From: Tenericutes bacterium ADurb.Bin087
GTDB lineage: Bacteria > Bacillota_I > Bacilli_A > RFN20 > CAG-826
NCBI GenBank assembly: GCA_002070905.1
Contig: MWEF01000011.1
Location: forward strand, 1 to 35,042
Reading direction: 5' to 3'
DNA length: 35,042 nt
In this document: positions 19,599 through 30,906 of the stretch, piece after piece
Position numbering within the stretch: position 1 is the stretch's first letter
Layout of the letters: every line of letters starts with the position of its first letter
Translations under genes and position numbers: made by a program
Notes under the pieces: model-generated
Told to the model about the DNA's origin: nothing
The model's input: the letters and a program-made list of their open reading frames with translations, nothing else
The model's database searches: none

Positions 19599-21230
<1,632 letters not shown>

Positions 21231-28701: not shown

Positions 28702-28730
28702 CTGATAGAAGCCCTTTTTTATGTTAAAAT
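28702..28730 (+). promoter_or_regulatory. Promoter of the plus-strand membrane-protein operon
   Basis: CTGATA (28702-28707, 4/6 match to TTGACA), 17 bases, then TAAAAT (28725-28730), with the extended -10 dinucleotide TG at 28722-28723. The predicted +1 is 28737, the A of an in-frame ATG, so the mRNA would be leaderless. This is the same geometry as the cysS promoter. Confidence 0.58.
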
Positions 28731-28736
28731 ATGACT

Positions 28737-29642
28737 ATGAAACTTAACTCATTATCACGCACCCATCAACTCGTTTTAGGGGCCCTTATGGGAGCAATCA
28801 ATGTCATATTTGCGCTTGTTAGCAGTTATTTATTTGCTTTCAGTTTATTAATCATGCTTTTTTTGCCACTTGCAAGTATCATCGTCGCGATTAATATTGA
28901 GCTTAAATACTATCCTGTATATTTGCTTGGTACACTTGCATTAGCGCTTGTCTTAAACCTTGGTAACATTGATAACACTCTCTTTTTCTTGCTTCCAATA
29001 TTAACAAGCGGATTAGCGTTTGGCCTTTTAATTAAGTACAACATCCCCGATATTATTATTTTACTTGTTGTAAGCGGTATTAATCTTTTAACCACTCTAA
29101 TAACTATTCCCATTATTAACTTAATATATGACATTAATTTTTTAGCGGTGTTTGCTACGTTTATTGGCTTTAATAATCTTGAATATGGCGCATTAGTGTT
29201 ACCATCTATCTTAACGCTTTTAGCGGTAATGCAAACACTGATAACGCTTGTGATTGTAACGCAAGACGCGGCGCTTTTTCGCTTAGAAATTAACACGAAT
29301 TATTGGCCTTATGTCAATCTAGTTAATTTAGTATTCAGCGCTCAACTATGTGTTATATCATTATTTTTTGTCAAAATTGGGTTAGCGTTATTATTCATTG
29401 TTATTTTATTAATGCTTTATCAAATCATTCATCTTTTCAAAAAACACCTCAATTTAGCGTGGTCAACATTACTTGCGGCAATAATCTTAGCAATTGTGGG
29501 AATTGCCATATTTGAAAATTACACACCCTTTCCATTTTATTTTGGTATCATTTTTGCTTTTATTCCAGTTGTGATTAGCGACGTTTTGTGGTTATATATT
29601 AGTAGAAAGAAAGACAAGGAACAAGATGAAGGGACTATTTAA
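28737..29642 (+). CDS. Uncharacterised polytopic membrane protein (YybS/DUF2232-like topology)
   Basis: A 301-aa protein with about eight or nine transmembrane helices and very few charges outside short loops. The start is taken at the second of two in-frame ATGs (28731 and 28737) because a -10 box ends at 28730 and would start the transcript at 28737. The N-terminus (LVLGALMGAINVIFALVSSY, then LFLPLASIIVAINIELKYYP) and the length recall YybS/DUF2232 proteins, but I could not confirm this. The highly charged C-terminus (SRKKDKEQDEG) is probably cytosolic. It overlaps the next gene by 17 bp. It is the first of three plus-strand genes in an otherwise minus-strand window. Confidence 0.8.
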   Translation: MKLNSLSRTHQLVLGALMGAINVIFALVSSYLFAFSLLIMLFLPLASIIVAINIELKYYPVYLLGTLALALVLNLGNIDNTLFFLLPILTSGLAFGLLIKYNIPDIIILLVVSGINLLTTLITIPIINLIYDINFLAVFATFIGFNNLEYGALVLPSILTLLAVMQTLITLVIVTQDAALFRLEINTNYWPYVNLVNLVFSAQLCVISLFFVKIGLALLFIVILLMLYQIIHLFKKHLNLAWSTLLAAIILAIVGIAIFENYTPFPFYFGIIFAFIPVVISDVLWLYISRKKDKEQDEGTI

Positions 29643-30048
29643 AAGATTAGGACAAGGATTGTTGTTTATCTTAGCGTTACCATTTGGGCTAATTATTTTC
29701 GCAATTTTCGCGGTATACGCTATTATGATGTTTTTCTATACGCTTTTTTCCGCTATTCCCGCTTTCTTTAAAGGTGAAAATGTGTTTGGACCAACCGAAT
29801 TAGATATTGCGGCTAGTACACGCCTAGCTGAACAAAAACTAGCGGCGCAACAACCACCGCCGCCACCAGTTGTGCAACCTTCAACAACAATCAACTTATT
29901 TACAGTGCAACAACCTGGTAGTGAACAAGTGCCACCACAAGTTACTTATACGCAAGGGGATGGTGTTACTTATCGCCGTGTTACTGAACAAGAAGTCGCA
30001 AAACTTCCTGAAGAAGCTATTATTGATCATAAAGAGGACCAAGAATGA
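29626..30048 (+). CDS. Unrecognised membrane-anchored protein with proline-rich soluble tail
   Basis: A 140-aa protein I do not recognise. Residues about 11-48 are hydrophobic (one long or two short membrane spans, LLFILALPFGLIIFAIFAV). A linker leads to a Pro/Gln-rich segment with five consecutive prolines (77-81), and the soluble tail ends in acidic residues (EEAIIDHKEDQE). AAGGA lies 5 bases before the ATG. It overlaps the upstream gene by 17 bp and the downstream gene by the 4-base ATGA, so all three are translationally coupled and likely work together in the membrane. No enzymatic motif is seen. Confidence 0.78.
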   Translation: MKGLFKRLGQGLLFILALPFGLIIFAIFAVYAIMMFFYTLFSAIPAFFKGENVFGPTELDIAASTRLAEQKLAAQQPPPPPVVQPSTTINLFTVQQPGSEQVPPQVTYTQGDGVTYRRVTEQEVAKLPEEAIIDHKEDQE

Positions 30049-30764
30049 TTTTGAATCCATATTTTTTATTAAAGCTAAGCGAGAGTGAAAAACGATTCTT
30101 AATCGTACTCTTTTTCCTGATTGTTGTCGTGCTTTTTGTGGGCGGACTTTTATATGAAGGCATCAGTAAATTCATGGCGCGCCAAGGCGAAGATATTGGG
30201 CGACTTATGGCAACCCAAGTTGAATCAGGTTATATTTCTTCGCTTAAACAATTTAAACGCAATTCCTATCGTAAATCACGCTTAGAATTTTATCGGCAAT
30301 TTGTAAAAACATTTATTATGATGCTTGTCTGGTTTGCGATTTATGGGACCGTAAGTATCTTTTATCGCCACTGGTTAGATTTATTTGATTACACTAGTGA
30401 AGGATTTACGACAATCTTATGGAAGTTTGATTACGCAAATACTCCGCGCAACACTTTCTTTGGCATCAGTGTCATTAGTGACTGGCCGCCATTACTCCAT
30501 AAACCATTTTTTAGCGCTAAAGCAATTCCTAGTTATCTTCTTGCACTCTTTGGCATTGTAATTATTATTTTGTTTGTCGGCCAAGTATTATCGTACTTAG
30601 CGCGTACCATCTTCATTATTCAACATGGTAAAAAGATGTTTACCCGTGATTTACGTGATTATAAATTAAGTGATTTAAGTGCCGCTCCTGCCGAATTACA
30701 AGAAAGCGGTGTCAATATTCCTGAAGTTACACCAAAGCAACAAGTGCCCCCCACTAACGGGTAA
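30045..30764 (+). CDS. Unrecognised three-span membrane protein
   Basis: A 239-aa protein I do not recognise. Likely transmembrane segments are 18-38, 87-107 and 163-186. Between the first two lies a basic, probably cytosolic segment (KQFKRNSYRKSRLEFYRQ). The 108-162 region, rich in aromatic residues (W, F, Y), would face the other side. The C-terminal ~50 residues are soluble, with a Pro-containing end (VTPKQQVPPTNG). GAGG lies 7 bases before the ATG, which overlaps the previous stop as ATGA. Its 3' end overlaps the end of the convergent 50-aa minus-strand gene by 11 bp. No catalytic motif is visible. Confidence 0.8.
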   Translation: MILNPYFLLKLSESEKRFLIVLFFLIVVVLFVGGLLYEGISKFMARQGEDIGRLMATQVESGYISSLKQFKRNSYRKSRLEFYRQFVKTFIMMLVWFAIYGTVSIFYRHWLDLFDYTSEGFTTILWKFDYANTPRNTFFGISVISDWPPLLHKPFFSAKAIPSYLLALFGIVIIILFVGQVLSYLARTIFIIQHGKKMFTRDLRDYKLSDLSAAPAELQESGVNIPEVTPKQQVPPTNG

Positions 30765-30906
30765 GCATTACACCAATTTGAATTCCGATAATAATTATTA
30801 AAATAATAATGATGATGCCTAAAACAAGGTTCCGTCTTTTATAACCACGGATTGCTATTTCTTCTTTTGTTAAGGGGATATCTTGTCCGTATTTATTCGT
30901 ATTCAC
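30754..30906 (-). CDS. 50-aa single-span membrane protein downstream of asnS
   Basis: A small gene starting with GTG at 30906 and ending TAG: MNTNKYGQDIPLTKEEIAIR, then GYKRRNLVLG, then a run of Ile/Leu ending GVMLTR. Residues ~1-25 are polar with a basic KRR stop-transfer-like cluster; ~27-47 form one strongly hydrophobic helix dominated by isoleucine. AGAGG, overlapping the asnS stop, lies 6 bases before the GTG, ideal spacing for coupled translation. By the positive-inside rule the N-terminus would be cytosolic. Family unknown. The 3' end overlaps the convergent plus-strand gene by 11 bp. Confidence 0.68.
   Translation of the reverse strand: MNTNKYGQDIPLTKEEIAIRGYKRRNLVLGIIIIILIIIIGIQIGVMLTR

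Follow-up and report, generated by a model that had tools for sequence, protein, structure and literature searches.

An order-specific three-gene membrane unit built around a divergent DUF2232/YybS paralogue with ECF S-component-like features

CbiMN- and NikMN-type S-units consist of an S-type protein and a small dedicated membrane helper, and are encoded together with ATPase and T genes. ECF S-components are the part of vitamin importers that captures the substrate. They dock to EcfT by means of an AXXXA motif (Partipilo and Slotboom, PMC11109136). The same fold serves scaffolding and sensing in MreD, which works in a multi-protein membrane complex, and in the 5TMR sensor kinases, and the AXXXA motif is absent from both (PMC11109136). 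The widespread membrane family DUF2232 (Pfam PF09991), i.e. the family of YybS, goes unmentioned in the text of that paper (PMC11109136), and the literature that we searched contained nothing under this Pfam name. In B. subtilis, yybS, gdpP and rplI are listed as a single operon (PMC6568419), and a canonical DUF2232 gene lies between rpsR and gdpP elsewhere in the class of the organism considered here, including some genomes of its order.

The locus described here lies on a stretch of 35,042 nucleotides (hereafter the window) from Tenericutes bacterium ADurb.Bin087, a member of the GTDB order RFN20 with Bacillales bacterium UBA1361 and Tenericutes bacterium ADurb.Bin239 as near relatives. It corresponds to contig C11 of an 88%-complete MAG of 1.09 Mb. 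A preliminary description had reported three overlapping plus-strand genes for membrane proteins within a region of minus-strand housekeeping genes, and we could confirm both the reading frames and the overlaps. P1 (28737-29642, plus strand; 301 aa, or 303 aa from an in-frame alternative ATG at 28731) overlaps P2 (29626-30048, plus strand; 140 aa) by 17 bp, and P2 overlaps P3 (30045-30764, plus strand; 239 aa) by 4 bp. Upstream of the trio are gatB, ligA and pcrA and downstream are asnS, tsaD, rimI, tsaB and tsaE, all on the minus strand; the remaining plus-strand ORFs of at least 90 aa are antisense to longer minus-strand ORFs. Immediately 5' of P1 is a promoter-like site with an extended -10 (28702-28730, plus strand; TG before TAAAAT), whose spacing to the ATG at 28737 would fit a leaderless transcript. 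It was found by a consensus scan only, with 9/12 matches, and as that scan returned 13 sites against 9.2 expected by chance, the evidence for it is weak. A riboswitch scan of 14 sequences found none beside the trio, and neither a riboswitch nor a neighbouring gene points to its substrate.

Other genes were seen close to the trio. On the opposite strand of the window, a 50-aa single-span ORF (30754-30906, minus strand) shares 11 bp with the end of P3, and small ORFs of ~47-60 aa occupy the same position beside asnS in many relatives. In ~20 relatives a gene on the opposite strand, for a thioredoxin-like lipoprotein, separates pcrA from P1; the window's genus lacks it. The copy at L024:9862-10269 has a weak PedC/BrcD match. 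Three f4 genomes (L038:1637-2164, minus strand; also L044 and L103) encode, directly after the trio, a 2TM protein that matches the PADLOC CBASS-type '2TM' effectors with an E value of 1.3e-19. A phage or defence origin was considered for the trio itself and rejected, as its proteins had no PHROGs or PADLOC matches and its synteny is vertical.

The arrangement P1-P2-P3, in this gene order and orientation, recurs at ~40 loci across several families of the taxonomic order, most of them flanked by pcrA and asnS; in some f4, f5 and f8 genomes the trio is intact beside neighbours other than the usual ones. Because this recurrence is seen among relatives whose trio proteins mostly share 20-30% identity, the arrangement is far beyond chance, and the conservation also rules out chance or spurious ORFs. 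The P2-P3 junction is overlapping in 38 of 41 loci. At the P1-P2 junction the genes lie within 18 bp of each other in 31/39 loci and overlap in 14/39, so the strict overlap described earlier extends to the relatives for P2-P3 and not in every case for P1-P2. Stoichiometric production of the three proteins, which had been deduced from that overlap, may be a property of the unit.

P3 was detected in 116 of the 147 genomes of the order and P1 in 111 of them, and a comparison of the lists and totals placed every P1-positive genome among the P3-positive ones (111 of 116), i.e. in these 147 genomes P1 was not once found without P3. A search of 395 genomes of the class gave a single strong match outside the order, on one 3.9 kb contig (G298:C8, locus L097) from a genome of another family; this contig holds little besides the trio and may be misbinned. 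Weak matches in five further genomes of the class (G450, G274, G423, G410 and G273) were partial and without the trio. In trio-less genomes of the order the ligA-pcrA-asnS genes are still syntenic and the trio is cleanly absent (L242, L243 and L245 in genus g37; L246, L248 and L253 in family f3), with the thioredoxin-like lipoprotein between pcrA and asnS in some cases. The loss is therefore real and joint, i.e. the trio is lost as a unit. The expectation that the genes would stay together in relatives was likewise borne out, except that the unit is sometimes split in genera g37 and g39: P2-P3 stay beside asnS in L113 and likewise in L112, where P1 was not found, and in G122 and G099 P1 stays beside pcrA on another contig (L153 and L154). 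At the level of genomics, the trio is thus a genuine, conserved, order-specific membrane unit.

P1 is polytopic, as had been described, with probably about 10 spans rather than the 8-9 first counted, there being nine hydrophobic peaks of which the first spans two helices. Searched alone, the P1 of the window matched nothing, PF09991 included. Among its homologues, however, 18/27 matched PF09991 (best E 1.8e-15), several of them above the cut-off, and an hhalign comparison of the trio P1s with the canonical proteins encoded in the rpsR-yybS-gdpP arrangement gave an E value of 8.8e-22, compared with 0.14 for the reversed control. By sequence comparison, P1 therefore belongs, at the family level, to DUF2232/YybS as a divergent member, and the two share an N-terminal core. 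In a maximum-likelihood tree, a branch with 100/99 support parts 43/43 trio P1s from 27/27 canonical copies, and the canonical side includes those of genomes in which the trio is present as well. This separation indicates that the trio P1 is an old DUF2232 paralogue. It differs from the canonical proteins not only in forming its own clade but also in its locus, pcrA/asnS in place of the rpsR-gdpP neighbourhood (the canonical copy, where present, is separate), and in its two dedicated partners. Two genomes of 0.8-0.9 Mb, G023 (L047/L096) and G030 (L146/L100), keep the trio together with a canonical yybS beside gdpP.

Profile comparisons also point to a relationship between DUF2232 and the ECF S-components. 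With the DUF2232 profiles pooled, and PF12822 members from the same order as the S-component set, hhalign gave 92.4% probability and an E value of 5.3e-7. In the same test an S-type control family, which we take to be QueT-like, scored 4e-5, and the controls FtsW, EcfT, P3 and reversed profiles scored 0.006 or worse. The similarity runs over the first helices and is in register. When helix 1 was removed from the canonical DUF2232 profile, the match remained in register at 2.7e-4 (reversed, 0.011) and was weaker than with helix 1; the trio-P1 profile alone gave 1.2e-4, and a weak 2.9e-3 without helix 1. Helix 1 carries an AxxxA-type motif, which in the P1 of the window reads ALMGA. A small-xxx-small pattern is present there in 41/43 trio P1s, 27/27 canonical proteins and 24/24 ECF-S controls, compared with a background of 5% in membrane segments, and strict A-A is found in 23/43 trio P1s and 16/24 ECF-S controls. 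The relationship of DUF2232 and P1 to S-components is thus moderately supported by profile and motif, and we read P1 as an S-component-like core of six helices followed by four further helices. These extra C-terminal helices set P1 apart from the S-components, as does the lack of any match to them in single-sequence searches; moreover, ordinary S-components have no counterpart of P2 or P3.

A further likeness to ECF systems is that a single shared EcfT is encoded elsewhere in the genome. Within the order 142/147 genomes have EcfT, among them G002 and G003, which belong to the window's genus. Two observations speak against an ECF link: the trio has no ECF genes alongside it, and searches for EcfT found none in two trio-bearing genomes, G079 and G012, or in the assembly that contains the window, which is 88% complete. 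Because EcfT is near-universal in the order its presence proves nothing; it is compatible with an ECF link without being discriminating. Elsewhere in the window, a minus-strand ORF that adjoins tgt and queA (20724-21230) and has no NCBIfam match is presumably a QueT-like ECF S-component, probably for a queuosine precursor.

No convincing match to Pfam, NCBIfam, PHROGs or PADLOC was obtained for P2 or P3. P2 has one conserved N-terminal hydrophobic stretch of ~45 residues, followed by a tail of low complexity in which P, Q, E and N are abundant. Where a membrane anchor with a cytosolic-type tail had been described, P2 looks like a short membrane hairpin from which the disordered tail would extend into the cytosol. 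The three spans claimed for P3 were also found (about 18-36, 88-106 and 165-183). Because the segment 37-87 is K/R-rich (mean 11.6 K+R), P3 is predicted to be N-out/C-in, which would place an aromatic loop on the extracytoplasmic side; conserved residues are W147, P148, P154, Y164, the near-invariant R187, F199 and L203. P3 had no sequence match in the PDB, and hhalign found no relation to EcfT, FtsW or S-components. AlphaFold models built from four sequences each were too poor to use (pLDDT 57 for P3 and 43 for P1), and a Foldseek search with the P3 model returned nothing significant (best E 2.1), although such a model cannot exclude a fold. P2 and P3 are two new protein families that are steady partners across the order; for them the earlier statement that no known system was recognisable holds, whereas for P1 it gives way to the DUF2232/YybS assignment and the S-component-like features. 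As the genes are conserved as a genuine unit and neither P2 nor P3 has been described before, it is reasonable to infer a membrane complex, in which P1, P2 and P3 may be in physical contact.

We tentatively propose, as a reading that falls somewhat short of an even chance, that the products of the three genes work together in the membrane as a single unit of the S-component type. The first six helices of P1 would form the S-component-like core and bind a small extracellular molecule for import, and P1 would dock via the AxxxA-type face of helix 1 onto the single shared ECF motor of the cell (EcfA-A'-T), encoded elsewhere. By analogy with the CbiN/NikN-type helpers, this S-unit would have P2 and P3 as dedicated accessory subunits specific to the lineage, with P3 contributing its aromatic loop on the outer side and a helical region in the cytosol, and P2 a flexible cytosolic tail together with a membrane anchor. 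The analogy lies in the pairing of an S-type protein with a small membrane helper; the genes for the CbiMN/NikMN-type units differ in that they adjoin the ATPase and T genes. A broader version, which we consider rather doubtful, is that DUF2232 as a whole constitutes a class of ECF-type S-components that has been overlooked, and that in one order of Bacilli with reduced genomes, most of them wall-less, a paralogue gained P2 and P3 to give an undescribed three-protein S-unit.

The main alternative, though on the unlikely side, is that P1 has an S-type fold but that the trio serves structure or sensing and not import, like MreD and the 5TMR receptors, with which P1 may share a fold; in wall-less cells, for example, it might be a scaffold for the envelope or for cell shape, the P2 tail recruiting cytosolic partners. 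The known use of the fold in scaffolding and sensing (PMC11109136) would suit this, as would the additional C-terminal helices of P1, its pair of dedicated membrane partners and the long disordered tail of P2. Also in keeping with it, FtsW/RodA is absent from 127/147 genomes of the order, including that of the window, so most of the order appears to be wall-less, which is compatible with a report on parts of RFN20 (PMC10868615). Against it, P1 keeps the AxxxA-type motif, whose loss from MreD and the kinases has been reported. In addition, the trio occurs in 18/20 FtsW-positive and about 98/127 FtsW-negative genomes and has been lost in several lineages, and is therefore not general to wall-less cells. 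As it is present both with and without FtsW/RodA it is not tied to peptidoglycan either, and a cell-wall role as its main function was rejected.

That the trio retains a YybS-type role linked to GdpP/c-di-AMP or osmotic control, relocated from gdpP, seems improbable. The position of canonical DUF2232 genes beside gdpP, including the B. subtilis operon, and the presence of the DAC cyclase in 142/147 genomes of the order would fit such a role, but DAC is near-universal, which makes c-di-AMP profiling uninformative, and does not track the trio. In G023, which carries the trio, DAC was not found; moreover, the trio P1s are a separate clade and coexist with canonical copies in some genomes. Slightly less probable still is the idea that P3 does the work, with P1 and P2 as its partners. 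With three spans, an outside N-terminus and a helical hairpin in the cytosol, P3 would formally resemble the Oxa1/Get1/EMC3 insertases or ExbB/TolQ motors. In favour are the topology, long helices (13-60 and 67-114) in a low-confidence model, non-significant Foldseek matches to TolQ/ExbB (E 4-9) and the g37 loci in which P2-P3 stay together with no P1 alongside. Against it, the topology is a common one, the model has a pLDDT of 57, P3 has no sequence match in Pfam, NCBIfam or the PDB, and an ExbD/TolR-like partner is lacking.

The unit rests on a known but uncharacterised family, and so is not wholly unrecognised. The S-component-like reading, with the EcfT-docking motif kept, is a first testable reading for DUF2232, and the locus defines two new families within an order whose members are for the most part uncultured and wall-less. 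If this reading is true, the trio would point to a nutrient that is imported by these reduced genomes.
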